64,000 nucleotides of DNA, taken from Draconibacterium orientale. GTDB taxonomy: Bacteria; Bacteroidota; Bacteroidia; Bacteroidales; Prolixibacteraceae. Of this stretch, positions 20,664 through 45,845 are shown one piece after another (positions within the stretch are counted from its first letter, which is position 1; every line of letters begins with the position of its first letter). The position numbers and the translations under genes are program-made. The notes beneath the pieces are model-generated. The model made no database searches and had not been told where the DNA came from. It was given only the letters and a program-made list of their open reading frames with translations. The stretch lies in the NCBI RefSeq assembly GCF_000626635.1, contig NZ_CP007451.1:372001-436000 (forward strand), written 5' to 3'.

Positions 20664-20682
20664 TTTATTCGCTTTTAAATTG

Positions 20683-21906
20683 TTAATGTTTATTTTTTGC
20701 CCACGATGGCGATTCGCGTAACACAGGCATTCGGCTGATGAACCATCTGAAAATCCATATTTCTATAAATATAATGGCGAAGGATACAACAATTTCCATC
20801 CAGGAAGGTGTGTAGTGCATCGCAGAATCCCAACGAAATGCAATAATTGATACGTTCAACCGATTTAACACAATCCCCACTATGGTAATCACTGCGGCTA
20901 CCCTTGCCCGGAAAATGCTTCCTTTTCTGAAACTTTGAATAAAAAGGAGCATGGGCAATAGTACAAAACCAAATATTTCGAGCATAAACCAGTATCCCAT
21001 TTGCGAATTTATGTACGCCCATCGGTGCCCGTGAACAAAAACAAGTACCTGCAAAAACAGGTAAATAAACATGCTGAATGCACAAATACGCGAGAGGCTA
21101 AGCACGATTTCTTTCCTTGTCTTTTTATCATTTTCGGTAATCTGATCGCTAAAGACCCTTTCACTGATTGACCCCTCGAATATTACCATGGACAAACCTG
21201 CAAAGACACTGGAGACAAGAAATAACAGCGGAATAAACCCGGAATACCACAACGGATGGATTTTTTCTTTAGCCATTAAAAACAGCGCCCCAAGCCCCGA
21301 CTGGTGCAAGGTTGATAAAGTAATACCAAAAATAACGGCTCCCAGCGTTAAGCCAGTAAGAATTTTATGAATACGGCGTGCTCCCAGCCACTCGGCAATG
21401 GCAGGCGAAAACTCAATTAACTGAGCAACAATATAGAGCAAAAAATGCCAGGCTACCAGGAATAATACAGAGTTGGCACCAAAATTATTCCCGATTATCG
21501 GATTAAAAATGTTCCATGGTTTTCCCAAATCGAGCACTAAAGCTCCGGCATAAAAAACATAAGCCAGAAAACCATTCAACACCGTTACACGCACGATGGA
21601 ATGAAACTTTTGAACCCCCATAACATACACAACAAAAGTGAGCACATAGGCACCTCCGGCAAAGGCAACTCCTGTAATTACATTAAATCCTTTCCATAGC
21701 CCCCATGGAATTTCCTGACTTACGTTGGATACCGCTCCAATGCCATGAATAAAGCGGAAAACGATAATGGCCAGCCCAGCCACAATTACCGGAATTGAAA
21801 TAATATTAAAAGGTGTTAACCATTTACCTCTTGGTTTCAATTCATTTACTAAAAAGCGCCAAACTGACTTCTTTTCTTTTTTTAGCGGAAATGCAGGGCT
21901 AGTCAT
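20683..21906 (-). CDS. HybB/NrfD-family membrane subunit
   Basis: 407 residues with about ten membrane segments, the architecture of HybB and the PsrC/NrfD family. Family-like strands include EIPWGLWKGFNVITGVAFAG near the start, DLGKPWNIFNP, and TLHQSGLGALFLM. These subunits exchange electrons with quinones and can couple this to proton movement. Its start overlaps the stop of the HybA-like gene by 8 bp, so the two are made together. A hydrogenase or molybdopterin catalytic subunit, which such pairs normally serve, is missing from the operon. Confidence 0.9.
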   Translation of the reverse strand: MTSPAFPLKKEKKSVWRFLVNELKPRGKWLTPFNIISIPVIVAGLAIIVFRFIHGIGAVSNVSQEIPWGLWKGFNVITGVAFAGGAYVLTFVVYVMGVQKFHSIVRVTVLNGFLAYVFYAGALVLDLGKPWNIFNPIIGNNFGANSVLFLVAWHFLLYIVAQLIEFSPAIAEWLGARRIHKILTGLTLGAVIFGITLSTLHQSGLGALFLMAKEKIHPLWYSGFIPLLFLVSSVFAGLSMVIFEGSISERVFSDQITENDKKTRKEIVLSLSRICAFSMFIYLFLQVLVFVHGHRWAYINSQMGYWFMLEIFGFVLLPMLLFIQSFRKGSIFRARVAAVITIVGIVLNRLNVSIIAFRWDSAMHYTPSWMEIVVSFAIIFIEIWIFRWFISRMPVLRESPSWAKNKH

Positions 21907-22762
21907 GATTTTCGTTTTTATTTAAGTTTAAATTAGAGGCTTTATTGAGTCCCAAAAGTAACGACGGTACGAGAACAAAAACAGCAGGCACACTGTATAA
22001 AAACCCCTTGGTAAGTGCCGGATACGATGTGTTTTGCACATTGGTATTGAATCCGATTTCTTCGAAAGGCACGGGAGACAAATACAAAAAGGAAGTTCCT
22101 CCGGCTTCGGTTTCGCCATAAATATGATCGTAATAAACATCCGGATTTTCGCTGATCCTTCGTTGGGCTTCAGCAATTAATTCGCGACGGGTTCCAAAAA
22201 GAAGCGCTTCACCCGGACAGTTTTCCACACAGGCTGGTAATTTACCTTCTTCCTGCCGCTCGAAACACATGTTGCATTTTGTAATTTTTGGATTCGGACT
22301 GTTGTACTCGAACTTAGGCACATCAAACGGACAGGAAATCATACAATAACGGCAGCCCATACATTTGTCTTCGCGCCAAATTACCGGGCCTTCCTTGGTT
22401 TTATGCATAGCCTGTGTTAAACAGGCAGCGCCGCAAGCCGGCTGATTACAGTGCATACACTGGCGTTTTACATAGACTTCGCCAAGCGAAGTTTCGTAGG
22501 CATTTACAACGGTACGCCGGGTTTCATTGGTTTTCCGAACCACACCCATTTCCGGGAAATCTTCCGGCTCGGGCAAATTATGAGCTTCTGCACACGAAAA
22601 TTCACAAGTTTGGCAACCAATACATTTTGTAGAATCATATAAAATAGCTTTGAATTCTATCACTTCTTCGTTGACGGGTTTTGCCGGTGCTTCTTTCCCC
22701 AGAACAAACGTAGCCCCCGTAATACCCAAAGCTTTGAAGAAACTTCTTCTGTTTATACTCAT
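21899..22762 (-). CDS. HybA-like Tat-exported four-cluster ferredoxin
   Basis: 287 residues. A Tat signal (NRRSFFKALG) opens the protein. Sixteen Cys form four [4Fe-4S] clusters: C47/50/53/57, C102/105/110/114, C134/137/140/144 and C163/166/178/182. A membrane helix follows near residues 247-265, as in HybA. It would sit on the outer face of the cytoplasmic membrane and pass electrons to or from the NrfD-like subunit. It lies 30 bp after the binding-protein/GcvH-like fusion gene. The partner that feeds or drains it is unknown. Confidence 0.9.
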   Translation of the reverse strand: MSINRRSFFKALGITGATFVLGKEAPAKPVNEEVIEFKAILYDSTKCIGCQTCEFSCAEAHNLPEPEDFPEMGVVRKTNETRRTVVNAYETSLGEVYVKRQCMHCNQPACGAACLTQAMHKTKEGPVIWREDKCMGCRYCMISCPFDVPKFEYNSPNPKITKCNMCFERQEEGKLPACVENCPGEALLFGTRRELIAEAQRRISENPDVYYDHIYGETEAGGTSFLYLSPVPFEEIGFNTNVQNTSYPALTKGFLYSVPAVFVLVPSLLLGLNKASNLNLNKNENHD

Positions 22763-22792
22763 GGTTTGTTAATTTAGATGGTTAGCAGGTAT

Positions 22793-24478
22793 TTAGTGTG
22801 TATCAGCAGTATTGATAAAATAATTCTGGAAGTCTTCCCATACCCTGGGATCCAAATCTTTTAATGGATGCAGCATCAATTCGCCTCCTTCCTGAAAGGC
22901 CGGTTTTCCCTCTTCCAGGTTCATAATATTCAGTGAACAGGCCAGAAAATCTTTCAGGCGGCTGAATTCCCCGATAATCCATTCGCGATAGCTACGGCCC
23001 ATTTTTAAAAACTGGGTTTCCCTCAGCCAGTTCGAAGGCTCAATTTTATACACCCAACCTTCACCATAAGGTTCGTTATTAATCATAAACGGATCGGCAA
23101 CTAAACTTTCATTAATCTCTTTTATCGTTCCCGAAACCGGCGAATTCAGAGTAATTTGTTTACCTTTTCTAATTAAGGTTACCACCGGCTCCATTCGTTT
23201 AACCTTTTCTCCCGGGCTTTTCATAATAAGGCGGGTATAGTTGCCGGTAACATTCGAAATGAAATCATCAACTCCCATTTTTACCCGGCCACCTTCTTCC
23301 ATAAAAACCCAGGTATGCGTTTTATCGAAATACAGGCCATTGGGGAAATCGAGAGAGGCTTCGTTTAACAACTTTACGTACCTTGTTTTATTTAACAAAG
23401 GGGCTTTGGCCTTTTGTTTGCGGATGAAATAGCGAACAATAACAAACACCAACAGAAGCCCTAAAACAGCTACAAAAATACTGAAAAACGCAGCGGATCC
23501 GGTGCTTGCCGATTCGTATTCGGCCATTAAAACCGGAGGAGTAAGCTTTTCGAGATTCGATTGTTTCTCGGAATGAACCAATTCAGTATATCCATTCTGT
23601 GCAACCAATACTTGACCAGAGGAGGTAAGCCAGCTTAAAAAGTTGTTTATTTCAGCATTTTCCGGGAAAGCAGAAGAAACTGCATATATATTGTATATCA
23701 TCGAATGCGGATATTTCCCGATCCAAACCGACCGCTCAAACTGTTCCGAACTGGCGTAAATATTTTCGTAATAATCCAGCCGTCCGTTTTTGTTACGGTC
23801 GATTGGAAGCAGCGCGATATTTTCGGCAAAATCTTTTTGCTCCAGATTGGTAATTACCGACAACCTGCAAAAACCAATGGCATTTATATCACTTTGTACA
23901 GCTTTCAGAAATTTATCCTGAGACAGGGCTTCCAATGTGCTGATTTCAGTTGGATCAACTTCGAGGAACTTCGCTACCGATAGTTTTACTTCCGGCTCGT
24001 CCAGCACGTAAAAGTTAAGGTTCTCACGATTTTTACTGTCCGCTAATGTGCCCCGGTTTTTATCGTTGTTTTGAAAAACTGTTGCCAGCTCATTAGCAGA
24101 AACTCCTGTTTCAGTTAGTTCTTTTGCCAACGGGTTTGCCTTATTAAAAACCGTTACCACCACTTCGCGTCCCAGCGGCAGCTGCCACATTTCACCAATA
24201 GTTGATGAAACATCAGCTTGTTGCATAACAATACCAATCGACTGATTACCTGCAACTTTATCTTTGACCTCAGCACGACTGACGGGAGTAAGTTCAAAAT
24301 TAAAATCAGTGTTTGTTTGCAGGTATTTGGCTATCCACACCTCAGTAAGGTTGCGCATTTCGGGAGTTGTAAAAATCTTTACCTGATCGTTTATCGCCGC
24401 GTTTTCGGCGTTTTGGCTTCTCGCACCACTAACTATTAGCAGGAGCAGCACTACGGTTGTTAAAATCCTGGTTCTCAT
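22793..24478 (-). CDS. Periplasmic binding protein / GcvH-like transmembrane fusion
   Basis: 561 residues in an order I have not seen described. A signal peptide (1-20) leads into a PstS-like periplasmic binding domain (about 30-320), which carries an EF-hand-like loop DRNKNGRLDYYE (227-238). A membrane helix (328-349) with a basic inner side leads to a GcvH-like domain (379-485; KTHTWVFMEE, GVDDFISNVTGN, NSPVSGTIKEIN, EPYGEGWVYKIEP). The tail at 529-554 (FQEGGELMLHPLKDLD) matches the protein at 19950-20663. The lipoyl Lys site reads RKGKQ instead of ESVKA. It is the first gene of the operon, behind the sigma-54-like promoter. It may couple periplasmic ligand binding to a cytoplasmic carrier domain beside HybAB. 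Confidence 0.8.
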   Translation of the reverse strand: MRTRILTTVVLLLLIVSGARSQNAENAAINDQVKIFTTPEMRNLTEVWIAKYLQTNTDFNFELTPVSRAEVKDKVAGNQSIGIVMQQADVSSTIGEMWQLPLGREVVVTVFNKANPLAKELTETGVSANELATVFQNNDKNRGTLADSKNRENLNFYVLDEPEVKLSVAKFLEVDPTEISTLEALSQDKFLKAVQSDINAIGFCRLSVITNLEQKDFAENIALLPIDRNKNGRLDYYENIYASSEQFERSVWIGKYPHSMIYNIYAVSSAFPENAEINNFLSWLTSSGQVLVAQNGYTELVHSEKQSNLEKLTPPVLMAEYESASTGSAAFFSIFVAVLGLLLVFVIVRYFIRKQKAKAPLLNKTRYVKLLNEASLDFPNGLYFDKTHTWVFMEEGGRVKMGVDDFISNVTGNYTRLIMKSPGEKVKRMEPVVTLIRKGKQITLNSPVSGTIKEINESLVADPFMINNEPYGEGWVYKIEPSNWLRETQFLKMGRSYREWIIGEFSRLKDFLACSLNIMNLEEGKPAFQEGGELMLHPLKDLDPRVWEDFQNYFINTADTH

Positions 24479-27720: not shown

Positions 27721-29067
27721 TTATTTCTCGATTAAACATGAAGTTTTTTCCATTTCATCAAATTTGATCCCAAAACGTTCCAGCTCATTTAAAATCGGCT
27801 CATAAATATAGGGCTGGGTAGGAATTAAAACGCCGCTTTGTTTTAGCCTGTCAGTCAGAAACAATTTGGCGGCCACTGCCAGCGGCAAACCTACTGTTTT
27901 CGCCATAGCTGTTCTTCTGCCCGATTCGCCAACAACCACCAGCGAACTGTTCTTTTCCACCTTTTCCTTCGTGTCGCGATTGAGGTATTCAAACTTATGC
28001 CACATCACAATCATATCTTTATCGTCGGGCATCAGCTGCCATTTTTCCGAGAGCAATTTTTCCATCACCTGAGCTGGAGTAGCGCGTTTTAACCCGATCT
28101 TCTTCTTTTCGAAAATCCCCAGCCACTCCAGTTTTGGAATGATTTCCGAATCCATCGGAATTTGCATGGAATGATACAGTTTCAGGTCGATGGTATCGGC
28201 CGGATGGTAATACAAAAAGGAGTTAATAAACTCGCGGTAGGTCATGTCTTCCACATTGTCGATATAGTGCTCGTCGCTGGTGGCCCCCAGTTGCACAAAA
28301 ACATTCCAGGCTTTGCAAAATCCCGGGCGACGCAAGGTCCCGCGAAAAACCGTGGGTACTTCCTGCAATCCGTATTTATCGATATAACTCATCGAATCGC
28401 GATTGGCATAGCCTTCAAACCAACCGTATTCATTAATTTTTATGAGTTCTGTGCGACGGAACAAACGGTTATAGGGTATGTATTTCACTTTCCCTTTCTG
28501 AATAAATTTTGCCGGGCCGCCCTGCCCTGCCAGCACCACATTTCGCGGATTCCAGCTAAACTTATAGTGCCACGGATTGTCATCCGATTCGGGCGCCACC
28601 AAACCACCGGTAAACGATTCAAAGGCCTCCAGCCGATGGCCTTCCTGTTTTATCTGGTTAATCACACGCATTGCCGACATGTGATCGAGGCCGGGATCGA
28701 GGCCGCATTCGTTCAAGAACAGCAGCCCTTTACTTCTCACCTCTTCTTCAACCTGCTGGGCTTCCTTACTTTCGTACGAAGCGGTAAACAGACTTTTCGA
28801 GAATTTCAGGCACGATTGCATCACCAGCTTATGCAGCCGCGCCGGCAACATCGAAATTACCAGGTCGGCCTGACTCACTTCCTGTTCGCGGGCAAAGTCA
28901 TCGCGCACATTTAAAATGGAAAAAGACAATCTCAAGGATTTTGCCAGGTCGCTTTCTTCGGCATCCACAACTTTTATGTGCCAGTGGTATTTTGATGCAC
29001 GTTCGGCCAGGTAGGTGAGCAAAAATACGCTCGATCTGCCGGCTCCGAATATTAATATGTTTTTCAT
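27721..29067 (-). CDS. Saccharopine dehydrogenase-family oxidoreductase (lysine cluster, copy 1)
   Basis: 448 residues from the ATG at 29067; one upstream at 29079 adds four residues. N-terminal Rossmann motif ILIFGAGRSS, the family strand LNECGLDPGLDHMSAMR, and the C-terminal YEPILNELERFGI. The length matches LYS9-type saccharopine dehydrogenase. In catabolism it could make saccharopine from lysine and 2-oxoglutarate, split saccharopine to aminoadipate semialdehyde and glutamate, or, as in L-lysine 6-dehydrogenases of the same superfamily, oxidise lysine directly. It is last in the lysine operon. It is paralogous to the gene at 37053-38372, and the two may do successive steps. Confidence 0.85.
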   Translation of the reverse strand: MKNILIFGAGRSSVFLLTYLAERASKYHWHIKVVDAEESDLAKSLRLSFSILNVRDDFAREQEVSQADLVISMLPARLHKLVMQSCLKFSKSLFTASYESKEAQQVEEEVRSKGLLFLNECGLDPGLDHMSAMRVINQIKQEGHRLEAFESFTGGLVAPESDDNPWHYKFSWNPRNVVLAGQGGPAKFIQKGKVKYIPYNRLFRRTELIKINEYGWFEGYANRDSMSYIDKYGLQEVPTVFRGTLRRPGFCKAWNVFVQLGATSDEHYIDNVEDMTYREFINSFLYYHPADTIDLKLYHSMQIPMDSEIIPKLEWLGIFEKKKIGLKRATPAQVMEKLLSEKWQLMPDDKDMIVMWHKFEYLNRDTKEKVEKNSSLVVVGESGRRTAMAKTVGLPLAVAAKLFLTDRLKQSGVLIPTQPYIYEPILNELERFGIKFDEMEKTSCLIEK

Positions 29068-29099
29068 AATTTTTAGCAATTAGTTACAAGCTTGGTATT

Positions 29100-29200
29100 T
29101 ATTCACCCGGTGACTTCGAGTCACCGGGTGAATACCGTCGAACCGTTTTAGTGATACCCTTGCTTTTGAGTGATACCCTCACTCAGAGTGAGCGTATCAC
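29100..29200. repeat. Two palindromes between the ALDH7 and saccharopine dehydrogenase genes
   Basis: TATTCACCCGGTGACT-TCG-AGTCACCGGGTGAATA is a perfect 16-bp stem (29100-29134). AGTGATAC (29168-29175) and GTATCACT (29193-29200) flank an inner CACTC-A-GAGTG stem. Neither has a T-run. They resemble REP-type elements or mRNA-stabilising hairpins. Confidence 0.6.
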
Positions 29201-29210
29201 TATGTGCTTC

Positions 29211-30752
29211 TTATACATTAAATTCAATTCCCTGAGCCAACGGAAGCTCTGTACTGTAATTTATGGTATTAGTCTGACGTCGCATGTAGGCTTTCCATGC
29301 ATCGGAACCCGACTCGCGGCCACCACCGGTTTCTTTTTCGCCACCAAAAGCACCACCAATTTCAGCACCCGAAGTACCAATATTTACATTGGCAATGCCA
29401 CAATCTGATCCTTCGTGCGACAGGAATTTCTCGGTTTCTAACATGTGCGTTGAAAAAATTGCTGACGATAATCCCTGCGGAACATCGTTATGAATACGAA
29501 TGGCCTCTTCCAAAACGGAATAACGAATCATATAAAGCAGCGGCGCAAACGTTTCGTCCTGAACAATTTCGTAGTGATTTTCCACCTCGGCGATAGCAGG
29601 AGTTACAAAACATCCTGATTCGTAACCTTCTCCCGACAGCACTTCTCCGCCAATCAGCAGATTTCCGCCTTCTGCTTTTACTTTTTCAATGGCGGCCAGG
29701 TAAGTATCCACGGCCCAACGATCAACCAGCGGGCCAACCAGTGTTTTTTCATCCAGAGCATGGCCAATTGGCAACTGCTCATAAATGGCAATCAAACGTT
29801 TTTTAAAATCATCGTAAACCGAATCGTGAACAATAATACGACGTGTTGAAGTACAACGTTGGCCGCAAGTGCCCACCGCACCAAACACCACCGCACGAAG
29901 CGCCATTTCCAGATCGGCATCAGGAGTAATAATTATGGCATTGTTGCCACCCAATTCCAGAATGGTTTTCCCAAGTCGCTGCCCAACAAGGCCGCCAACT
30001 TTTTTACCTATTTTTGTAGAGCCGGTAAACGACACCAGCGGAATATTTTTATCGCTGAAAAACTCATCGCCCAATTCGCGTGATCCTGCTGCTACAAGAT
30101 TCAAAACCCCCTCAGGAATATCGTTTTCTTTTAAAACTCTGGCAACGATATTGTGCACAGCAATGGCACATAAAAATACTTTCGATGAAGGTTTCCATAT
30201 CACCACATCGCCGGCAACCATTGCAATCATTGCGTTCCAGGCCCAAACGGCCACCGGAAAGTTAAAGGCCGAAACCACGCCCACAATTCCCAGCGGATGA
30301 TACTGGTCGTACATGCGGTGCTTTTCGCGTTCCGAATGCATGGTAAAACCATACAACTGGCGCGACTGGCCCACAGCAAAATCGCAGATATCAATCATTT
30401 CCTGCACCTCGCCCAAGCCTTCCTGATAAATTTTCCCCATTTCGTACGAAACCAGTTTTCCGAGCGGCTCCTTGTATTTGCGAAGTTCCAGACCAATCTG
30501 ACGCACAATCTCGCCACGTTTTGGTGCCGGCACCATTCGCCACACTTTAAAAGCGTCTTTTGCTTTTTCCACCACCTCGTGGTAGTCGGCCGCAGTTGCC
30601 TGATTCACGGTTGCAATCAATTCCCCGTCCGATGGCGAAAACGATTCCACAACTGCACCGGAGGTTGTTTTCCATTCGGTTCCGGTGCAAACACCATTAT
30701 TAACTTCACTAATTCCTAACTGTTTTAATTCTTTTGAGATGTCGATTTTCAT
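29211..30752 (-). CDS. ALDH7-type aminoadipate semialdehyde dehydrogenase
   Basis: 513 residues. Catalytic C300 in GTCGQRCTSTRR and E266 in LELGGN. The antiquitin-type substrate loop (GEVQEMIDICDFAVGQSR, E118) and R299 beside the Cys match the residues that hold the aminoadipate semialdehyde carboxylate and amine in human ALDH7A1. It should oxidise 2-aminoadipate 6-semialdehyde to 2-aminoadipate with NAD(P)+. It lies between the thiolase and a saccharopine-type dehydrogenase gene, which supports lysine catabolism. Confidence 0.92.
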   Translation of the reverse strand: MKIDISKELKQLGISEVNNGVCTGTEWKTTSGAVVESFSPSDGELIATVNQATAADYHEVVEKAKDAFKVWRMVPAPKRGEIVRQIGLELRKYKEPLGKLVSYEMGKIYQEGLGEVQEMIDICDFAVGQSRQLYGFTMHSEREKHRMYDQYHPLGIVGVVSAFNFPVAVWAWNAMIAMVAGDVVIWKPSSKVFLCAIAVHNIVARVLKENDIPEGVLNLVAAGSRELGDEFFSDKNIPLVSFTGSTKIGKKVGGLVGQRLGKTILELGGNNAIIITPDADLEMALRAVVFGAVGTCGQRCTSTRRIIVHDSVYDDFKKRLIAIYEQLPIGHALDEKTLVGPLVDRWAVDTYLAAIEKVKAEGGNLLIGGEVLSGEGYESGCFVTPAIAEVENHYEIVQDETFAPLLYMIRYSVLEEAIRIHNDVPQGLSSAIFSTHMLETEKFLSHEGSDCGIANVNIGTSGAEIGGAFGGEKETGGGRESGSDAWKAYMRRQTNTINYSTELPLAQGIEFNV

Positions 30753-30806
30753 TTTATTTATTTTTAGTTGTTTACAAATTCTTTTTTACCCCTTACCCTT
30801 CAGGAG

Positions 30807-30902
30807 TTCCCCTTTCAAGGGGAACAAGCGTTAAACAAACTTCCTGCGTTTCTTTGAAGCCTCCCTCTTTACATTTTACGTTTTTCCCTTATTAAGGGAA
30901 AA
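30807..30902. repeat. Two palindromes between the thiolase and ALDH7 genes
   Basis: TTCCCCTT-TC-AAGGGGAA (30807-30824) and a palindrome TTTTCCCTTATTAAGGGAAAA (30882-30902). They fill a 184-bp gap inside the operon, like the pair at 29100-29200. Confidence 0.55.
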
Positions 30903-30936
30903 TGTCGGCAGACAAAAGGGTATAGTTGTTTAATAT

Positions 30937-32139
30937 CTATACCTTCTCCAAAACCATTGAAACTCCCTGCCCCACGCCAACACACATGGTGCAAAGCGCG
31001 TATTTTGAAGTTTTATTTTGCAGCTGATAAACTGCTGTTGTCACCAGGCGCGCTCCCGACATTCCCAGCGGATGACCGAGTGCAATGGCGCCGCCAAGCG
31101 GATTCAGACGCGGATCATCGTCATCCATTCCCAACGAACGAGTGCAGGCCAGCGATTGCGCGGCAAATGCTTCATTTAATTCAATAATGTCCATTTGGTC
31201 CAGACTCATTCCCAGCCGTTTCAACAACTTATTGGTGGCCGGTACCGGTCCGATTCCCATGGTACGAGGCGGCACACCGGCTGCCTGAGTTCCCAGAACC
31301 CGGACTTTCGGCGTTAAATTGAACCTTTTAACAGCCGCTTCCGATGCAACAATTACAGCAGCAGCTCCATCGTTAATGCCCGAAGCATTGCCGGCAGTTA
31401 CTGTTGTTCCCGGGCCATAAACCGGATTTAAGGTTACCAGTTTTTCCAATGAAGTCAGCCTCGGGTGTTCGTCCTTTTCAAAAATTACCGGATCGCCTTT
31501 TCGCTGTGGAATGGAAACCGGAATAATTTCCCGCGCCAGTGCTCCGTTTTGTTGTGCTTCAGCCGTTTTCAACTGACTGTTGTGTGCAAACCGATCCTGA
31601 TCTTCTCGACTTATACTGAATTCTGCGGCCAGATTTTCAGCCGTACAAATCAACGGATCGGTTCCGTATTTTTTCTGAAATTTTTCATTCACAAAACGCC
31701 AGCCAATGGTTGAGTCGTAAATTTCTGCCTGACGCGAAAACGCACTTGTATGTTTTGGCATTACAAAAGGCGATCGCGACATACTTTCGGCGCCGCCGGC
31801 AATTATCAGTTCTGCCTCACCAGCTTTTATGGCGCGTGCTGCCATTCCAATGGCTTCCATTCCCGAGGAGCATAAACGATTAATGGTTACGCCCGGCACC
31901 GACTCCGGCATTCCGGCCAACAACAAAGCCATTCGGGCAATATTACGATTGTCTTCGCCGGCCTGGTTGGCACATCCCATCAGCACATCATCGAAAGCTA
32001 CTGCTTCAATCTGCTGGTTTCGTTCCAACAATGTTTTTATGGGAATAGCTGCCAGATCATCGGCCCTTACGGCAGACAGCCCTCCTCCATATTTTCCAAC
32101 AGGTGTGCGTATTGCATCGCAAATAAAAACATCTGTCAT
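30937..32139 (-). CDS. PcaF-like 3-oxoadipyl-CoA / acetyl-CoA C-acyltransferase
   Basis: 400 residues. Thiolase catalytic residues are all present: Cys in NRLCSSGMEAIG, His in GHPLGMSGAR and Cys in CVGVGQG. The N-terminus (VFICDAIRTPVGKYGGGLSA, then VRADDLAAIP) is characteristic of PcaF/PaaJ-type beta-ketoadipyl-CoA thiolases rather than general acetoacetyl-CoA thiolases. Expected reaction: 3-oxoadipyl-CoA plus CoA to succinyl-CoA and acetyl-CoA. No aromatic ring-cleavage genes are nearby, so its 3-oxoadipyl-CoA must come from elsewhere; the neighbouring genes suggest lysine. Confidence 0.88.
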   Translation of the reverse strand: MTDVFICDAIRTPVGKYGGGLSAVRADDLAAIPIKTLLERNQQIEAVAFDDVLMGCANQAGEDNRNIARMALLLAGMPESVPGVTINRLCSSGMEAIGMAARAIKAGEAELIIAGGAESMSRSPFVMPKHTSAFSRQAEIYDSTIGWRFVNEKFQKKYGTDPLICTAENLAAEFSISREDQDRFAHNSQLKTAEAQQNGALAREIIPVSIPQRKGDPVIFEKDEHPRLTSLEKLVTLNPVYGPGTTVTAGNASGINDGAAAVIVASEAAVKRFNLTPKVRVLGTQAAGVPPRTMGIGPVPATNKLLKRLGMSLDQMDIIELNEAFAAQSLACTRSLGMDDDDPRLNPLGGAIALGHPLGMSGARLVTTAVYQLQNKTSKYALCTMCVGVGQGVSMVLEKV

Positions 32140-32242
32140 AGTTTAGATTTTAGTATTGAGACTTTGAGTAGAGAAATGGAACAGGCAAAAAGCAAAATGA
32201 CAGTTGGCAATTCTCAAATCATTATTCATTCGTCTCCATTCG

Positions 32243-33577
32243 TTAATCATTATTTAGTTTTTCAATCTTTGGTTTTAGCGCTTTAAAAGCCCTGAACAAA
32301 CCTTCTGTTAACTGATCAATTTCCTTTTGTGTCATTACCGTTGAAAGCATACACGAAAAAGTGTTAATCATCAGTGTATTTTCTTTATAATACATGTAAT
32401 CCAGCAACTCATTCACCAGCTTTTTCCCTTCTTTATCCTGATAAGCCTCGCGGTAAGTTGTGGGCGGATCGGGCCGAAGGTGTATACGAAACATCGAGCC
32501 GGCACCGGTAACCGAAAACGGAACACCGGCGAGTTTTATGGCTTCGCGAATTTGTTTAACGGCAATATCAGCCAACGAATTAAGCTGCTGAACCGCTTCC
32601 GAATCAAAATATTTCATGGCCTGGTAACCGGCAGTCATCGTGATCGGATTAGCCGAGAAGGTTCCTGAATACGGCAACAAAAGATTCTTTTCATGCGGAT
32701 CAAAAACCTGCATCACATCAGCTCTTCCGGCCACAGCACCGACAGGGAAACCACCACCGATTATCTTTCCAAGCGATGTCAAATCCGGTTTCACTGAATA
32801 ATTTTCCTGTGCGCCACCGTAATTCACCCGAAACGTTACCACCTCATCAAAAACCAGTAAAGCCTCGTTTTTCCTTGTCCAGGCATAAAGCGCTTCTATA
32901 AAATCATGATTCCCGGGTACTAATCCTACACGATGAGGAACAGGATCGACGATAACACAGGCGATATCTTCCGCATGTTTATCCAGAATATTCAGCGTTC
33001 GTTCAATGTTGTTGTACGGATATATAACCACGTCTTTGGCTACACATGGTGGTGTTCCGTGAGCCAGCGGAACACTGCTGGGCTGATCTTCCTTTCCCCA
33101 GTTTGACGGATCTGCCATTTGGCTGACTTCAGCAAAATCGTAAGTTCCATGATAAGCCCCTTCGGCCTTTGCAATTTTTGGCCGGCCGGTAAATGCCCTC
33201 GATGCTTTTATCATGGCCATTACCGCTTCAGTACCTGAATTCATAAAACGAATACGCTCGAAACTCGGCACGCGTTCGATCAGGTGAGTAGCAAAAGCCA
33301 CTTCAATTTCGGAAGCCAGCGTGTATGCAGTTCCTTTTTTTAGCTGTTCGATAACCGCATCAACAATTGGCGGAAAGGAATGACCGTGAATAAGTGCCGC
33401 CATGTTATTGGCAAAATCGGTGCGCACTGTGCCATCGATATCGGTAATGTAACAGCCCGATGCACTGTTGGCATAATTCGGATAAGGCATCCGGAAAACG
33501 GTATTCCGGCTTACTCCACCACTTATTACCTGACGTGCCTTGTTGTAAATTTCCTCGCTATTTTCTTTTTTAGCCAT
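32243..33577 (-). CDS. Class III aminotransferase, GSA-aminomutase / beta-amino acid type
   Basis: 444 residues. PLP fold type I with PLP Lys in TSLGKIIGGGFPVGA, the Asp in VFDEVVTFR, the Gly-rich NSGTEAVMAMIKASRA region and an N-terminal ISGGVSR stretch. This is the branch holding glutamate-1-semialdehyde aminomutase and the beta-phenylalanine aminotransferases. No heme genes are near. In this cluster a transaminase acting on a 3-amino acid is expected, and 3-aminoadipate to 3-oxoadipate would fit. It lies 18 bp downstream of the CoA-transferase beta gene. Direct 2-aminoadipate transamination is the alternative. Confidence 0.82.
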   Translation of the reverse strand: MAKKENSEEIYNKARQVISGGVSRNTVFRMPYPNYANSASGCYITDIDGTVRTDFANNMAALIHGHSFPPIVDAVIEQLKKGTAYTLASEIEVAFATHLIERVPSFERIRFMNSGTEAVMAMIKASRAFTGRPKIAKAEGAYHGTYDFAEVSQMADPSNWGKEDQPSSVPLAHGTPPCVAKDVVIYPYNNIERTLNILDKHAEDIACVIVDPVPHRVGLVPGNHDFIEALYAWTRKNEALLVFDEVVTFRVNYGGAQENYSVKPDLTSLGKIIGGGFPVGAVAGRADVMQVFDPHEKNLLLPYSGTFSANPITMTAGYQAMKYFDSEAVQQLNSLADIAVKQIREAIKLAGVPFSVTGAGSMFRIHLRPDPPTTYREAYQDKEGKKLVNELLDYMYYKENTLMINTFSCMLSTVMTQKEIDQLTEGLFRAFKALKPKIEKLNND

Positions 33578-33595
33578 CTTTTTGTTCTTACTGAT

Positions 33596-34252
33596 TTAAT
33601 CCTGTTGCAATGGCGCTTCGGTGTGTTGTTGCAGAAACTCGAAACTCACTCCGGGAGCCATTTCCCGCACATAAAGCTGTTTATTCCTGACATCAATTAT
33701 TGCATAATTGGTATAAATGCGACTCACCACATTTTTTCCCGTTAGAGGATAAGTGCACTGTTTTACAATTTTGGAGCCGCCCGTTTTGGTGGTGTGTTTT
33801 GTAATTACATAAATAGTTTTTACGCCGGCCACCAAATCCATAGCTCCCCCCACGGCCGGAATATCCTTGGGATTTCCGGTTGACCAGTTGGCCAGATCAC
33901 CTTCTTCCGAAACCTGGTAAGCTCCCAGCACACAAATGTCGATGTGGCCGCCACGTATCATCGCAAAACTATCGGCATGATGAAAATAAGCCGCACCGGG
34001 AATAGCCGTGACATATTTTTTTCCGGCATTTACCAACTCCGGATCTTCATGCTCCTCTTCTGCAACATTTCCCATCCCAAGCAATCCATTTTCGGTATGA
34101 TAGATCACTTCACGTCCTTCAGGAATAAAACCGGCAACCATTTCGGGAATACCGATTCCCAGATTTACGTAGGCACCATCGTGAATATCCATAGCCACTT
34201 TTTGTGCCATTTCGGCGTTGCTCCAACCTGTTATTTTAGTAGTTAATTCCAT
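33596..34252 (-). CDS. 3-oxoacid CoA-transferase, beta subunit
   Basis: 218 residues. Active-site Glu in YHTENGLLGMG, plus the family strands YVNLGIGIPEMVAGF and IDICVLGAYQVSEEGDLANW. With the alpha subunit it moves CoA from succinyl-CoA or acetyl-CoA to a 3-oxoacid such as 3-oxoadipate (PcaJ), acetoacetate (ScoB/AtoA) or similar. It overlaps the alpha gene by 17 bp. Next to a PcaF-like thiolase, 3-oxoadipate is the favoured substrate. Confidence 0.88.
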   Translation of the reverse strand: MELTTKITGWSNAEMAQKVAMDIHDGAYVNLGIGIPEMVAGFIPEGREVIYHTENGLLGMGNVAEEEHEDPELVNAGKKYVTAIPGAAYFHHADSFAMIRGGHIDICVLGAYQVSEEGDLANWSTGNPKDIPAVGGAMDLVAGVKTIYVITKHTTKTGGSKIVKQCTYPLTGKNVVSRIYTNYAIIDVRNKQLYVREMAPGVSFEFLQQHTEAPLQQD

Positions 34253-34958
34253 GGTATTTTACATTTTCGGAAACCAGTTTCGACTCGTCGGCAGGATTGG
34301 AAATTTCCACTACACGATGAACAAAAATTCCCGGTGTTACCACATGTTCCGGATTAATATTCCCCAGTTCAACCACCTTTTTAGCTTGCACAATAGTTTG
34401 TTTGGCAGCCATACACATAACCGGCCCAAAGTTGCGGGCTGTTTTGTTGTAAATAAGGTTTCCGTATTTATCGGCAGCGGCACATTTCACCAAGGCAAAA
34501 TCAGCCTGAATGGCTTTTTCCATAACGTATTCCCTGCCGTTAAACCCGCGTATTTCTTTGCCTTCTGCCAAAGGAGTATTTACTGTTGTTGGCGTGTAAA
34601 AAGCAGGGATTCCTGCTCCGGCGGCACGAATGCGCTCGGCCAGAGTTCCCTGGGGAACCAGTTCCAGCTCAATTTCGCCGGCCCGGTACAACTCTGGGAA
34701 AACAACAGAAATGGCAGTACGAGGAAAAGAACAGAGGATCTTTTTCACCTGACGGTTTTCGATAAGTGCGGCCAGCCCAACATGTCCGCTACCGGCATTG
34801 TTACTCACTACCGTCAGATCTTTTGCTCCCTGATCAACCAGCGCGTGAATCAATTCTACCGGGCTACCGGCTTCACCAAAACCACTGATCATTACGGTTG
34901 CTCCGTCGAAAATGCCGGCAACCGCTTCTTTTGCCGAATGCACGATCTTGTTAATCAT
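34236..34958 (-). CDS. 3-oxoacid CoA-transferase, alpha subunit
   Basis: 240 residues. Family motifs are GATVMISGFGEAGSPVELI near the N-terminus, SNNAGSGHVGLAALI, and AGAGIPAFYTPT. It pairs with the beta subunit encoded immediately downstream (17-bp overlap). Its ATG overlaps the end of the aminomutase gene by 8 bp, which makes co-translation with that gene likely and ties the two steps together. Confidence 0.88.
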   Translation of the reverse strand: MINKIVHSAKEAVAGIFDGATVMISGFGEAGSPVELIHALVDQGAKDLTVVSNNAGSGHVGLAALIENRQVKKILCSFPRTAISVVFPELYRAGEIELELVPQGTLAERIRAAGAGIPAFYTPTTVNTPLAEGKEIRGFNGREYVMEKAIQADFALVKCAAADKYGNLIYNKTARNFGPVMCMAAKQTIVQAKKVVELGNINPEHVVTPGIFVHRVVEISNPADESKLVSENVKYHGINY

Positions 34959-36519
34959 GGCCTGCCATTTTTAACGATTCTTTTTTTAGCGCTTCTTCCA
35001 GTCTTCCCTCAATCTCTTCCAACTCATCTTCGTAGAAATACTTATCGGCCTTGTAAGGCTTTAATTTTTCAATTGTATTTTCCTGCTCGTTGTACTCGGC
35101 AAAATATACGCGGTCCATCCACTCCATGTTCCGGGCTTCGTTGAATTTTAGCACGAACACTTTTTCGCCATCAATTTCTGTTGTGCCCATCAGCGAGGTT
35201 TTTCCGGCAGAGGAAGTCATCGTAATGTAGCGCGACGGACGATTTATCGATGCCAGACTGCGATACACCTTGTTGAATACTTTGGTGATATCGGCCAGCG
35301 GTGCTGTGAAATGATGATGCTCGCCGGTTGGCCGTGCGCAGTACATCGAATGGAAACCAATACCAACCATGGCCAGTATATTGCCTAAATCAATCCAGTT
35401 TTGTGCCGACCGATCGACATCCACTTTGCCGTTTTCATCTTTATACAAACTAATGGTGTTCATAATCGGACTTTGGCTCTTCACTTTTATGTCGTATTTT
35501 TTCAGGCGCTGAATAGCTGCAAGTGCTCCCGGATTCAACAGCTCACGCGGTGTTGAGGTATGCGACATCCAAACCACCTGGATACCATTTTCAACGGTAG
35601 TTTTCAGCAGCTCCAGAATTTCTTTAAACCGATCGGTGAGCAGAAATTCAGGATGAAAAGTGATAGCCCGCGAGCCAATTCGTAATGTGCGGATATGCAA
35701 CAACTCATCGTCTTCCAGAATTGGAGTGAGGTATTCTTTCAATCGCTTGTATGAAATGTAGCCCGCGTCTCCTCCGGTAATTAATATGTCGGTAACTTCT
35801 TTGTGCTTTTTCAGGTAATTATGCACCTGCCCGATGTCGTGCTGAACAAACATATCTTCGTCGCCACGCACCTGTGCATGACGGAAACAATAGGTGCAAA
35901 AAGCAAAACAGTTTTGTGTTCCGGCATCCAGAATCAGTTTTATCGGCGGATACTTGTGCTGGCTTCCTTCCAGAATTTCAATCTGCCCCTCGTCGTTATA
36001 AAAAAACGGTTTGTTCAGTTTTTGTTTCCCATCGTGCGGATTGGTTTTTAACTGGTAAGCTTCAACAACTTTCCGTCGATCTTCTTCGCTTTGGGCATCC
36101 AGGTATTTTTGTACATCAGTTTTGTTAATCATATCCGGCTGCGGAAACACCAGGTAGTAATTCGGATCATTTTTATAGTTGCTCCAATCAATGGTATTCA
36201 GAATATGTTTGGTCGCCATAAAACGGTACACTTCAAGAAAAAACTCACGTTCTTTTACACGTTCGAGCTCTACTCCATTAGCTTTCAATACATTTAAAAT
36301 TTCACGAAAACCGGCTAACCCGGTGTAATGGGTTTTTCCTGTAAAAAGTGGAGTACCCGTTTTTGAAAAGCCGGAATACTGAGGATAACATTTTTGCAGG
36401 CGGTGAATTAATCCTGCTGATAAAAGCTCCTCGTTTTTAATGGTTTGTATTGTTTCGGGCGTAAAATTGTAAGCACGCATCATTTCATCAACATTTAATG
36501 ATTCTTTCGTACTGTTCAT
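34951..36519 (-). CDS. KamA-family radical SAM 2,3-aminomutase, probably not lysine-specific
   Basis: 522 residues. The radical SAM cluster is C204-x3-C208-x2-C211, R213 matches the substrate-carboxylate Arg of lysine 2,3-aminomutase, and PLP Lys K440 is in SSAGKTSLM. By my alignment the two Asp residues that hold the lysine epsilon-amine in the clostridial enzyme (D293, D330) are replaced: the first region reads CARPTGEHHHF (394-404, A/R at the position) and the second reads MTSSAGK (T/M). The C-terminal zinc Cys of that enzyme are absent. It probably shifts the amino group of another 2-amino acid, and 2-aminoadipate is the candidate that fits the cluster; glutamate is an alternative. It is the first gene of the lysine operon. 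Confidence 0.85.
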   Translation of the reverse strand: MNSTKESLNVDEMMRAYNFTPETIQTIKNEELLSAGLIHRLQKCYPQYSGFSKTGTPLFTGKTHYTGLAGFREILNVLKANGVELERVKEREFFLEVYRFMATKHILNTIDWSNYKNDPNYYLVFPQPDMINKTDVQKYLDAQSEEDRRKVVEAYQLKTNPHDGKQKLNKPFFYNDEGQIEILEGSQHKYPPIKLILDAGTQNCFAFCTYCFRHAQVRGDEDMFVQHDIGQVHNYLKKHKEVTDILITGGDAGYISYKRLKEYLTPILEDDELLHIRTLRIGSRAITFHPEFLLTDRFKEILELLKTTVENGIQVVWMSHTSTPRELLNPGALAAIQRLKKYDIKVKSQSPIMNTISLYKDENGKVDVDRSAQNWIDLGNILAMVGIGFHSMYCARPTGEHHHFTAPLADITKVFNKVYRSLASINRPSRYITMTSSAGKTSLMGTTEIDGEKVFVLKFNEARNMEWMDRVYFAEYNEQENTIEKLKPYKADKYFYEDELEEIEGRLEEALKKESLKMAGHD

Positions 36520-37052
36520 TTCAATTGAATTTAAAAGTTACTATTGAAAATTTAGAAAACACTCAAGACCCAATGCATAGCCTTATACGAGCCATACAGG
36601 AAGGCTGTTGCGCTTCATTCCGAATCCGTCTTACCGACACTGATTTGAAAGCATTTTAACAGTAAAAAGTATTGACAGGCGCCAATAAGAGTTGTGGAAT
36701 AAAACCAACTGCGGTTGCAGCTAATGTGAAACCTTATCATCATCGAGGCACTCTGGCATGCCTTGATAGAAAAAAACAGGACATGAATACGATTGTACCA
36801 TGTGCCCAATTTATGAAAATTTAAATCAGAAGTCCATGATTTTTGTGATAATTTATAAAAATGGAAGATATCATCTTTTGTTAAATAAATTTTTAGCAAC
36901 TTAAGGGGCTATTAAAAAGTATTTTTTTGCCGAAAAAGTAAGACGTTTAATTCGTTAACACGACCAAAAATTCAGCAAAAACCAGAGTAATATTTATCGA
37001 ACGAATTCTTATTAATTTCGTTTGAATAATTGGAAACAGAAAACAGAAAAAA
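36520..37052. other. Divergent control region of the lysine cluster
   Basis: AT-rich 533 bp between the start of the aminomutase operon (minus) and the second saccharopine dehydrogenase (plus). I could not fix a convincing -33/-7 pair for either direction. A 94-codon minus-strand frame (36615-36899) has no recognisable features. The region should hold both promoters and any operator. Confidence 0.4.
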
Positions 37053-38372
37053 ATGAAAGTACTATTACTTGGCGCCGGAATGGTAGCCAAACCACTTGCC
37101 GATTATATTCTTAACAACCAAATAGAATTAACCATTGCCAGCCGCACACTTGCAAAAGCCGAAAAGTTAATCGGAAACCATGCAAACGGTAAAGCGCTGC
37201 AATGGACCATCGACGATCTTAACCAACTGGATGAACTGATTGCTTCGCACGATTTAACTGTAAGCCTGTTGCCGTATGCACACCATGTAACGGTTGCCCA
37301 ACTGTGTATTAAGCACAAAAAAAACATGGTAACCACATCGTATGTATCAGAAGAAATGAAGGCACTGGATGCTGAAGCAAAAAATGCCGGAATTATTATT
37401 CTGAACGAAATTGGTGTTGATCCGGGCTTTGACCATATGACTGCCATGCGAATCATCGATAAGGTAAAAGAAAAAGGTGGCAAGATCAAGGAATTTTACT
37501 CGTTGTGCGGAGCACTGGCCGCCCCCGAAGAAATTGACAATCCGTTTAAGTATAAATTTTCGTGGTCGCCAAAAGGTGTAATTATGGCCGGAAATAACGG
37601 AGCGAAATATTTAAAAGACGGCGAAATTGTTGAACTCCCCACTGAAAAGCTTTTCAAAGATCCGTTGAAAATTGATTTTCCCGAAGTTGGAGAGATGGAA
37701 GTTTACCCCAATCGCAACTCGTTGGCTTACATCGATATTTACGGATTAAAAGATGTTACCACCATGTACCGCGGCACGTTCCGTTACCCCGACTGGTGCG
37801 AAATTATGGATGCCATGAAAACGCTTGGCTTGTTTACCTACGAGAAGCAAAATTTTGCCGGCAAAACTTACAAAAAAGTTATGGCACGCCAGCTGGAAGT
37901 TTATCCGGCCAACATTAAAGAAAAAGTAGCTGAACGGCTGCGGTTGCCGATCGACAGTCCTGCTATTCGGGCTATGGAATGGCTGGGTCTTTTCAGCGAT
38001 TATATGGTTGCAATGGACGAAGGATCGAATTTTGATTTGGTTACCTACCTGATGCTCAAAAAAATGATGCTCCCCGAAGGTGCCCGCGACATGGTTATCA
38101 TGCTTCACTCGTTTTTAATTGAAAATGCCAACGGAAGCAAAGAAGTTATAAAATCGCGGTTATTGGATTTTGCCACCAAAGAAGATACATCGATTGCAAG
38201 AACAGTTGCGCTACCTGCAGCCATTGCGGTTAAAATGATTTTGGATGGAAGAATTACGGACAAAGGCGTTCATATTCCGGTATCAAAAAGTATTTACGAG
38301 CCTATTTTAACGGAACTGGAAAAACTTGGCATTGCCATGAAAGAAGAATGGGGACTGCCCATTAACAACTAG
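37053..38372 (+). CDS. Saccharopine dehydrogenase-family oxidoreductase (lysine cluster, copy 2)
   Basis: 439 residues. Rossmann motif VLLLGAGMVAKPLADYIL, the strand LNEIGVDPGFDHMTAMRI, SWSPKGVIMAGNN and the C-terminal YEPILTELEKLGIA. It is clearly paralogous to the protein at 27721-29067 and of LYS9-like length. It is divergent from the aminomutase operon. Likely roles are lysine:2-oxoglutarate reductase, glutamate-forming saccharopine dehydrogenase or lysine 6-dehydrogenase; the sequence does not decide which copy does which step. No LYS1-type (AlaDH/PNT-like) reductase is in the window. Confidence 0.85.
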   Translation: MKVLLLGAGMVAKPLADYILNNQIELTIASRTLAKAEKLIGNHANGKALQWTIDDLNQLDELIASHDLTVSLLPYAHHVTVAQLCIKHKKNMVTTSYVSEEMKALDAEAKNAGIIILNEIGVDPGFDHMTAMRIIDKVKEKGGKIKEFYSLCGALAAPEEIDNPFKYKFSWSPKGVIMAGNNGAKYLKDGEIVELPTEKLFKDPLKIDFPEVGEMEVYPNRNSLAYIDIYGLKDVTTMYRGTFRYPDWCEIMDAMKTLGLFTYEKQNFAGKTYKKVMARQLEVYPANIKEKVAERLRLPIDSPAIRAMEWLGLFSDYMVAMDEGSNFDLVTYLMLKKMMLPEGARDMVIMLHSFLIENANGSKEVIKSRLLDFATKEDTSIARTVALPAAIAVKMILDGRITDKGVHIPVSKSIYEPILTELEKLGIAMKEEWGLPINN

Positions 38373-42774: not shown

Positions 42775-44190
42775 CTATTCCTCGTCTTTTGTATAACCCA
42801 GAATTTTAAACATTTCCTCTGCCGACTGCTCGTTTCTATACACATAATCGAAGAAATTTCCTTTCTCGTCGCGATCGATAATCACGTGTTTTGGTGCCGG
42901 AATCAAACAGTGCTTAATTCCACCATAACCACTAATGGCATCCTGGTAGGCACCGGTGTGGAAAAATCCAAGATAAAGCGGCTCTTTATCATCGTCGGAA
43001 TAAGCAGGCAGCAAAACCTCCTGGTTAAAGTCTTCCGAGTTATAATAATCCGAATGGTCGCAACTGATACCTCCAATATTGGCACGTTTGTATTCGTTGT
43101 TCCATTTGTTAATCGGCAGCAAAATAAATTTTTCGAAAATCGACCACGAATCGGGGATGGTGTTCATTAAACTGTTGTTTATAATGTACCAGCTTTCGGT
43201 GTCGTTTTGCTGTTTTTGCTCGAGCACCTCGAAAATGATCGCACCGCTTTCGCCCACCGTATATTTTCCAAATTCGGTGTAAATATCCGGGTCAGGCAGG
43301 TTTTCAGCCGAGCAGGCTGTTTTTATGTTCGAAACAATTTCTTTTATCATGTACTCGTAATCGTACTCAAAACCCAGGTGGTTACGAATTGGAAAACCTC
43401 CACCAAGGTTAAACGAATCGAGTGTGTCGCATTGCTTTTTCAGCTCCACATAAAGTTTCATTGCTTTTTGAAACTCGCCCCAGAAATACAGACTGTCTTT
43501 AATTCCCGAATCAACAAAAAAGTGAAGCATCTTTAATTCGATGTTTTTCTTTCCTTTAATCTGATTCTGGAAAAACTCCGGGATATTGGTGTGCCTGATT
43601 CCCAAACGCGAGGTGTAATAGGCCGACTGCGATTCTTCGTTAATCGCCATACGAATACCCACTTTTACCTTTTCGCCATTGGCCAGTTTTTCAATCCGTT
43701 GCAGCTCGTTAATACTATCTAAAACAATAATATTATTCTTAAACCCAAGCCGTTGCAGCTCAATAATTTTCGACAGGTATTCCTGCGTTTTATAGCCGTT
43801 GTGAATAATCTTCCGATTCTTATCAATTTTCTTATCCTTAAACAGATGCAGAATCAGATCAATGTCGTACGACGACGAAGTTTCGAGGTTTACATTATGT
43901 TTTAACGCCTCGTTAACCACATGCGAAAAGTGGTTACACTTGGTACAATAACAATAATAATACTTGCCGTTATAATTGTTCTTTTTAATGGCCTTATTAA
44001 ACAGGTTACGCGATTTTTTTATTTGTTCCCCAATTTTTGGCAGATATATAAACCGAAACGGGGTGCCATATTTTTTAATCAGATATTTTAAAGAGATTCC
44101 GTGAAAGGTTAATGAATCGCCTCTTAAATCAAAGCCTTCCTGCGGAAAGTAGTAGCTTTGCTCAATCAAATCAAAATAAGTATTCTTCAT
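42775..44190 (-). CDS. speA: Arginine decarboxylase-like PLP decarboxylase (fold III)
   Basis: 471 residues. PLP Lys in YYCYCTKCNHFSHVV, phosphate-binding LGGGFPIRN, and the cross-subunit Cys/Asp in GISCDHSDYY. This is the short Bacteroidota form of biosynthetic arginine decarboxylase, shorter than the roughly 630-residue E. coli SpeA. It would make agmatine as the first step towards putrescine. It is divergent from the carboxynorspermidine synthase gene, which puts a polyamine route on both sides of one 450-bp control region. Substrate (arginine versus another basic amino acid) is inferred from family. Confidence 0.82.
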   Translation of the reverse strand: MKNTYFDLIEQSYYFPQEGFDLRGDSLTFHGISLKYLIKKYGTPFRFIYLPKIGEQIKKSRNLFNKAIKKNNYNGKYYYCYCTKCNHFSHVVNEALKHNVNLETSSSYDIDLILHLFKDKKIDKNRKIIHNGYKTQEYLSKIIELQRLGFKNNIIVLDSINELQRIEKLANGEKVKVGIRMAINEESQSAYYTSRLGIRHTNIPEFFQNQIKGKKNIELKMLHFFVDSGIKDSLYFWGEFQKAMKLYVELKKQCDTLDSFNLGGGFPIRNHLGFEYDYEYMIKEIVSNIKTACSAENLPDPDIYTEFGKYTVGESGAIIFEVLEQKQQNDTESWYIINNSLMNTIPDSWSIFEKFILLPINKWNNEYKRANIGGISCDHSDYYNSEDFNQEVLLPAYSDDDKEPLYLGFFHTGAYQDAISGYGGIKHCLIPAPKHVIIDRDEKGNFFDYVYRNEQSAEEMFKILGYTKDEE

Positions 44191-44640
44191 CTACGTAGCC
44201 ATAAAAAATTATCAGTGTTTTTGCTCAAGTTTCAAACCGCAAATAAAATTAATTTTTTCCGATAATTCCTGTACTGAAAGTAAAAACGGAGCAAAAGCTT
44301 AATTTTTTTCCATTTCAGCAAAAAACTGCTCAAAATGCGGTCTTTATTTTCCTCTAATCACCCAAAGTTAATTAATAACCATTGTAGGGCAAAATCATCC
44401 TGCCAGAGAACTTCGTATATTCACAATGTAAGCTGCAATGTTCGCATTACATTCCGGATTTCCTGTTTCGCATTCGTTAAAAACGAATATTCTTTCAGAT
44501 AAAAAATCTTTAATTTTGAAATTTTCACTCATCAAAAAAAATGCTTAATTTGTCTCTTAATTGAATACACTTCATACGAAATTACAATATTCGTGTGAAT
44601 CTTTTCTATGTTATTGAATTTAAAATGATTAAACAAGAAA
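44191..44640. other. Divergent control region of the polyamine genes
   Basis: 450 bp without a gene. Contains an inverted repeat ATTCGTT-AAA-AACGAAT (44472-44488), a possible operator. I see no clear riboswitch or -33/-7 pair. Confidence 0.35.
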
Positions 44641-45834: not shown

Positions 45835-45845
45835 CAAGCCAGGCG

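Follow-up and report, generated by a model that had tools for sequence, protein, structure and literature searches.

A conserved KamA-like gene cluster in Draconibacterium orientale suggests a lysine degradation route through 3-aminoadipate and 3-oxoadipate

Results

An eight-gene cluster with a KamA-like gene at its head

We consider here a 64,000-nucleotide window of the Draconibacterium orientale chromosome (positions 372,001–436,000 of a one-contig 5.13-Mb genome, completeness 99.98%), and within it a cluster of eight genes, headed by one for a KamA-like radical S-adenosylmethionine (SAM) protein, that we examine as a candidate set for lysine degradation. A sequence-only reading of the window had described eight neighbouring genes with overlaps of 8 and 17 bp, and the coordinates of the open reading frames (ORFs) bear this out: all eight ORFs lie where they had been placed, on the same strands, with the kamA-like and cotA frames sharing 8 bp and the cotA and cotB frames 17 bp. 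Seven of the genes form a minus-strand run from 36,519 down to 27,721, in the order kamA-like, CoTA, CoTB, class III aminotransferase, thiolase, aldehyde dehydrogenase (ALDH), and SDH1 (one of two saccharopine dehydrogenase [SDH]-like genes). The eighth, SDH2, lies on the plus strand from 37,053 and diverges from the kamA-like gene across a 533-bp gap. The features are as follows:

34951–36519, minus strand: KamA-like radical SAM protein, first gene of the run, candidate 2-aminoadipate 2,3-aminomutase
34236–34958, minus strand: CoA-transferase subunit A (cotA), PcaI type by TIGR02429 and by identity to PcaI versus AtoD
33596–34252, minus strand: CoA-transferase subunit B (cotB), PcaJ type by TIGR02428 and by identity to PcaJ versus AtoA
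32243–33577, minus strand: class III aminotransferase (PF00202, PDB matches), candidate 3-aminoadipate (beta-amino acid) transaminase
30937–32139, minus strand: thiolase, 3-oxoadipyl-CoA type by TIGR02430, PDB 6pca, and identity to PcaF versus AtoB
29211–30752, minus strand: ALDH7-type L-piperidine-6-carboxylate/2-aminoadipate semialdehyde dehydrogenase, over the NF050084 cut-off
27721–29064, minus strand: SDH1, saccharopine-dehydrogenase-like paralogue (Sacchrp_dh_C, 1e5l), with an alternative TTG start at 29079
37053–38372, plus strand: SDH2, candidate saccharopine dehydrogenase (glutamate-forming; Sacchrp_dh_C, 1e5l, kin beside a lysine–ketoglutarate reductase [LKR] gene in locus L036)
36520–37052, no strand: intergenic region between the divergent kamA-like and SDH2 genes, likely to hold promoters

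The Bacteroidota promoter pattern has 3 matches in the whole window, which is the chance level, and 0 in the divergent region.

The KamA-like protein is an aminomutase relative with an altered pocket

At 522 aa, the KamA-like protein (92% identical to its D. sediminis counterpart) is longer than the lysine and glutamate 2,3-aminomutases, with which it shares the fold, the pyridoxal phosphate (PLP) lysine, and the CX3CX2C Fe–S motif. The motif cysteines (Cys204, Cys208, and Cys211, Met1 numbering) are unchanged in 31 of 31 aligned sequences, drawn from the 36 first listed after removal of L037, which has a stop, and of L049, L055, L056, and L065. However, although lysine 2,3-aminomutase (LAM) is its best fold match, the protein falls far below the cut-offs of the family models, scoring 79.8 of 199.2 bits for TIGR00238, 58 of 525.4 bits for the LAM model TIGR03820, and 52.3 of 650 bits for the glutamate 2,3-aminomutase model TIGR04368. 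Because the PDB profile search reached no further than the middle of the protein, we placed the C-terminal pocket in two ways, with hhalign and by its distance in sequence from the PLP lysine. The position of LAM D293 is occupied by Ala395 or Arg396 and that of D330 by Thr433, and an invariant Arg sits in the side-chain pocket where LAM has aspartates. We take D293 and D330 to be the residues that bind the side-chain amine of lysine.

These features bear on the possibility that the enzyme is itself a LAM, whose product, beta-lysine, would be transaminated, activated, and split to acetyl-CoA and 4-aminobutyryl-CoA. Such a reading would fit the fold match and some of the source names, which read lysine 2,3-aminomutase, but it is made improbable by the low score on the LAM model, the replacement of both aspartates, the dicarboxylate (Pca) type of the transferase and thiolase described below, and the ALDH7, which it would leave without a role.

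Of 7,998 candidates scored in a protein search with the KamA-like query, 1,443 matched at E ≤ 0.001; the best 120 of these all have at least 65% identity, and most are without a name, annotated as hypothetical, or labelled lysine 2,3-aminomutase. A sister KamA family, at 29–36% identity, is present in 42 of 395 sampled genomes of the window's phylum (E ≤ 1e-44), and no neighbour is common to more than two of the 8 loci read for it. The genome of the window carries a member as its second KamA-like protein, at 2756137–2757345 (L088:7003–8352).

The transferase and thiolase resemble beta-ketoadipate enzymes

The thiolase passes the 3-oxoadipyl-CoA thiolase model TIGR02430 (pcaF) with 657.6 bits against a cut-off of 597, and each of the 30 operon thiolases examined matches pcaF with E ≤ 1e-150. 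Its identity is 60–62% to PcaF versus 42% to AtoB, and its PDB matches include the beta-ketoadipyl-CoA thiolase 6pca (534.9 bits), the top row being 8gqh (544.1 bits), which is named only Thiolase. CoTA passes TIGR02429 (pcaI/scoA) and CoTB passes TIGR02428 (pcaJ/scoB), both of them models at subfamily level only, and the best PDB matches of the CoA transferase are succinyl-CoA:3-ketoacid transferases. CoTA is 59–61% identical to the PcaI of two pca-type clusters versus 38% to E. coli AtoD, and CoTB is 56% identical to PcaJ versus 43% to AtoA; the reference transferases come from Sinorhizobium and Paracoccus plasmids, both beside pcaF and that of Sinorhizobium also near pcaGHCD. Judged by these identities, the CoA transferase is closer to PcaIJ than to acetoacetate transferases. 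The tree that goes with this comparison takes in the window, 20 loci, and 7 references and leaves most deep forks unresolved. Because of the Pca-type identities and the pcaF matches, we favour a 3-oxo-dicarboxylate over acetoacetate: the sequences point to such a substrate for both enzymes, with the chain length not fixed by the identities. The genome holds one CoA_trans pair in all.

The aminotransferase (alignment n = 33) matches PF00202 and is HemL-like, staying under the cut-offs of the 25 models shown; its PDB matches are 6k8h, ForI, GSAM, and beta-transaminases.

Candidate genes for the steps from lysine to 2-aminoadipate

The ALDH passes the L-piperidine-6-carboxylate dehydrogenase model NF050084 (802.8 bits, cut-off 730). 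SDH1 and SDH2 both match Pfam Sacchrp_dh_C and the fungal saccharopine reductase 1e5l, SDH2 with 301.5 bits and SDH1 with 227.2 bits, and the nearest kin of SDH2 adjoin LKR in the Cloacimonadota locus L036. Of the two saccharopine-type dehydrogenases that the earlier proposal has yielding the semialdehyde, SDH2 is a candidate for that step, and SDH1 has no assigned one. No LKR is found among the eight cluster genes, and neither SDH-like gene resembles one. A homologue is encoded at 1,095,666–1,096,871 of the same genome, 62% identical to the LKR of a Prolixibacteraceae metagenome-assembled genome (MAG; L073), which in turn matches the LKR region of human alpha-aminoadipic semialdehyde synthase (E 7.6e-42). 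Homologues of LKR, SDH, and ALDH7 are accordingly all present in the genome of the window, and with the LKR homologue encoded elsewhere in it, the first step of the pathway has a candidate enzyme.

A five-gene core recurs in fixed order

A contig scan located relatives of the KamA-like protein at 79 loci, and our gene-order counts take those with enough downstream sequence (at least 5 kb for the full five-gene order). One comparison drew on 30 of the loci, with L064 trimmed at its end. CoTA lies downstream of the kamA-like gene in 76 of 76 such loci, with overlapping frames in 10, CoTB follows CoTA in 74 of 74, and the aminotransferase is inside the set in 69 of 69. The thiolase completes the five-gene order in 61 of 65, the exceptions being L048, L056, and L062, where none is shown, and L068, which has one nearby on the opposite strand. 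Because the order recurs so often, the arrangement is not a matter of chance. Neighbourhood comparison, put forward with the sequence-only reading as a check on it, thus finds the core genes co-occurring in fixed order. Overall, 64 of the 79 loci hold the five genes in order, and ten phyla are represented among the 62 of these whose titles give one: Bacteroidota (34), Pseudomonadota (14), Balneolota (4), Acidobacteriota, Planctomycetota, and Sumerlaeota (2 each), and Ignavibacteriota, Chlorobiota, Thermodesulfobacteriota, and Cloacimonadota (1 each), with the proviso that many core loci come from bins, so that phylum names may err. A close KamA-like orthologue (62–100% identity) is found in only 3 of the 395 sampled genomes, that of the window included. 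The core is widespread but rare.

One might ask whether these genes serve to synthesize a beta-amino acid, such as 3-aminoadipate for use as a solute or as a building block, and not to break lysine down. Some microbes, as we understand it, do use beta-amino acids made by 2,3-aminomutases as solutes. This explanation seems very improbable to us, as the thiolase and CoA transferase in the run indicate breakdown and, of the neighbour clusters listed, none that recurs with the core holds a synthase or tailoring gene.

Directly upstream of the core, 9 of the 79 loci encode a small protein (L066, at 5693–6250, and L009, L010, L027, L028, L053, L060, L061, and L079). The one scanned has helix-turn-helix and cupin domains and is a candidate ligand-sensing regulator.

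Lysine genes stand beside the core in separate lineages

Of the 79 loci, 14 have ALDH7-type genes and 12 have SDH-family genes, and the partners that adjoin the core change from one lineage to the next. Relatives of the window carry ALDH7 and SDH genes after the thiolase, together with a second, divergent SDH; two MAGs, one of Geobacter (L048) and one deltaproteobacterial (L078), have ALDH7 directly upstream of the core; the Cloacimonadota MAG L036 has the order SDH, LKR, core; and in L073 LKR comes after ALDH7. On a KamA tree that combines the window and 4 sister-family sequences with the 72 loci whose frames exceed 450 aa, the ALDH linkage requires at least 3 changes. Whole-genome searches, which covered 50 of the 79 loci chosen to span genera, found SDH (E < 1e-80) in 27 core genomes and LKR (E < 1e-25) in 28, one of these partial. 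At least one of ALDH7, SDH, and LKR is present in 37 of the 50, all three are present in 18, and LKR and SDH are adjacent in 15, by our reading of hit positions.

Several loci deserve separate mention. The Shewanella and Photobacterium cores L034, L035, L038, L040–L044, L046, and L076 have a LysR-type gene nearby, and 5 of these genomes, searched whole, contain no good ALDH7, SDH, or LKR; in Shewanella G026, weak SDH-like (3.3e-37) and LKR-like (3.8e-7) matches lie side by side. An ornithine-transaminase-like gene, under the cut-offs shown, is near the core in L032 and L078. In the genome of L056 (G041:C122:3042–5463), ALDH7 adjoins a 362-aa frame that weakly matches saccharopine dehydrogenase, possibly a lysine 6-dehydrogenase that would give another entry to 2-aminoadipate. 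The best plasmid relative of CoTA (65%) is on the Tistrella mobilis plasmid pTM2 (L096:961–7391), near a DUF1338 protein, an aminotransferase, and an ALDH 54% identical to that of the window; DUF1338 we take to be a 2-oxoadipate enzyme. That stretch has no kamA-like, core aminotransferase, or thiolase matches.

An alternative substrate for the core is glutamate, which would be converted by way of 3-aminoglutarate to 3-oxoglutarate, then to the CoA ester of the latter, and finally cleaved to acetyl-CoA plus malonyl-CoA; on this reading the neighbouring lysine genes would be there for some other reason. Glutamate 2,3-aminomutases belong to the same superfamily (TIGR04368), 2-aminoadipate is glutamate plus one methylene, Shewanella and Photobacterium carry the core without recognised lysine genes, and in L034 the core is followed by a GadC-like glutamate/gamma-aminobutyrate antiporter that narrowly misses its cut-off (661.5 of 673.5 bits). 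In the 13 of 50 core genomes that show no lysine genes at our thresholds, Shewanella and Photobacterium among them, glutamate stays a real rival. For the core in general we consider it unlikely, though worth keeping in view, given the low TIGR04368 score noted above, the fit of the thiolase to the 3-oxoadipyl-CoA model, and the joining of the core by lysine genes in separate lineages.

Genome-wide searches for competing pathway ends

The sequence-only reading had seen no glutaryl-CoA dehydrogenase and no aromatic-degradation genes that would explain the beta-ketoadipate enzymes. The first absence extends to the whole genome, where no glutaryl-CoA dehydrogenase is recognised and the two PF00441 proteins score 152.8 and 80.9 of the 470 bits set for NF045552; the second holds genome-wide for two markers, intradiol dioxygenase (0 PF00775 matches) and PaaA/C (none). 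The usual end of the saccharopine route is therefore missing, as are two usual sources of 3-oxoadipate or its CoA ester. These results speak to the idea of two unrelated neighbouring modules, one taking lysine to 2-aminoadipate and the other a beta-ketoadipate end piece fed by aromatics. It is true that the reference sequences nearest to the transferase and thiolase sit in aromatic pca clusters; nevertheless, with neither aromatic marker in the genome and the aminotransferase inside the set in every testable locus, we give the two-module explanation little credence.

A proposed route from lysine to acetyl-CoA and succinyl-CoA

On homology and gene context at every step, the cluster probably degrades lysine via 2-aminoadipate, 3-aminoadipate, and 3-oxoadipate to acetyl-CoA and succinyl-CoA. 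The LKR homologue encoded elsewhere in the genome would condense lysine with 2-oxoglutarate to saccharopine (step 1), which SDH2, and possibly SDH1, would split to 2-aminoadipate semialdehyde and glutamate (step 2); ALDH7, a member of its curated family, would oxidize the semialdehyde to 2-aminoadipate (step 3). The KamA-like enzyme, with its fold, Fe–S motif, and PLP lysine, would then convert 2-aminoadipate to 3-aminoadipate (step 4), and the aminotransferase, a likely beta-transaminase by family, would turn 3-aminoadipate and 2-oxoglutarate into 3-oxoadipate and glutamate (step 5). The PcaIJ-type CoA transferase would exchange 3-oxoadipate and succinyl-CoA for 3-oxoadipyl-CoA and succinate (step 6), and thiolysis by the PcaF-type thiolase would release succinyl-CoA and acetyl-CoA (step 7). 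Such a route would dispense with both 2-oxoadipate dehydrogenase and glutaryl-CoA dehydrogenase, and no CO2 would be released. The central idea, an aminomutase, beta-transaminase, CoA transferase, and thiolase acting on lysine-derived 2-aminoadipate, gains support from the gene order, the active-site residues, the PcaIJF identities, and the lack of a recognised glutaryl-CoA dehydrogenase and of the two aromatic markers. It remains the best reading of the cluster; the earlier version of the route has to give way on LKR, which lies outside the cluster, and on SDH1, which is unplaced.

Several observations weigh against this proposal. The LKR homologue lies about 0.69 Mb from the cluster, so that the eight genes do not supply the whole route, as had been claimed. 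SDH1 is farther than SDH2 from solved enzymes, and no role was found for it. The equivalent of D293 shifts by one residue between the two alignments, and the sister KamA family also retains the Arg along with the PLP lysine (8 of 8 aligned), so the Arg is not unique to the core family. ALDH7 exceeds its cut-off in 28 of the 50 core genomes versus 196 of 395 in the phylum at large and is thus not enriched; genome-wide co-occurrence of ALDH7 failed as support for the route, and we therefore rely on physical linkage. The LKR and SDH counts cover core genomes alone, and 13 of the 50 core genomes, among them 4 Shewanella and 1 Photobacterium, contain no ALDH7, SDH, or LKR at our thresholds.

Other genes in the window

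Apart from the lysine run, a further Sacchrp_dh_C protein (44641–45834) is flanked by two decarboxylase-like frames at 42775–47041, a set that presumably resembles carboxynorspermidine/polyamine genes. Four consecutive minus-strand frames at 19950–24478 encode what we take to be an Fe–S protein and a membrane protein between two GcvH-type lipoyl-domain-like proteins.

Discussion

Lysine degradation is one of the most varied amino acid routes, and the proposed pathway shares parts with several known ones. Like the saccharopine pathway (LKR, SDH, and ALDH7, then 2-oxoadipate and glutaryl-CoA), it would use LKR, SDH, and ALDH7 homologues to give 2-aminoadipate; there, however, 2-aminoadipate is transaminated, whereas here an aminomutase would rearrange it, in a genome without a recognised glutaryl-CoA dehydrogenase. 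Its last two steps, by 3-oxoadipate CoA transferase and 3-oxoadipyl-CoA thiolase, are those of the beta-ketoadipate pathway (PcaIJ, PcaF), but the 3-oxoadipate would derive from lysine rather than from aromatics, for which the two markers are lacking. With lysine fermentation via beta-lysine and 3,5-diaminohexanoate it has a KamA-family 2,3-aminomutase in common; in that fermentation the aminomutase acts on lysine itself. Its further genes kamDE, kdd, kce, and kal were called absent by the sequence-only reading, which covered the window and not the rest of the genome. To our knowledge, the conversion of 2- to 3-aminoadipate by an aminomutase has no precedent, and we know of no place where the saccharopine and beta-ketoadipate pathways meet. 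As far as we found in the open-access PMC literature, the route is undescribed. One paper counts eleven lysine degradation pathways in the MetaCyc annotation of 2017, and glutaryl-CoA is the end point of nearly every pathway it discusses (PMC5653290). In the CsiD/LhgO route via glutarate and L-2-hydroxyglutarate, lysine carbon likewise ends in succinate, but an oxygen-using enzyme hydroxylates glutarate, and neither an aminomutase nor 2-aminoadipate is involved (PMC6265302).

Considered more broadly, the sequence comparisons suggest that the core may well stand for one more class of lysine catabolism, spread over at least ten phyla, in which a 2-aminoadipate 2,3-aminomutase would found a new family and feed beta-ketoadipate enzymes without loss of CO2. 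If this is true, a 3-oxoadipate route would join two textbook pathways while keeping all six lysine carbons, the radical SAM aminomutases would gain a new substrate, and a widespread, mostly unnamed protein family would gain a function, providing a natural entry from lysine into C6 dicarboxylates.

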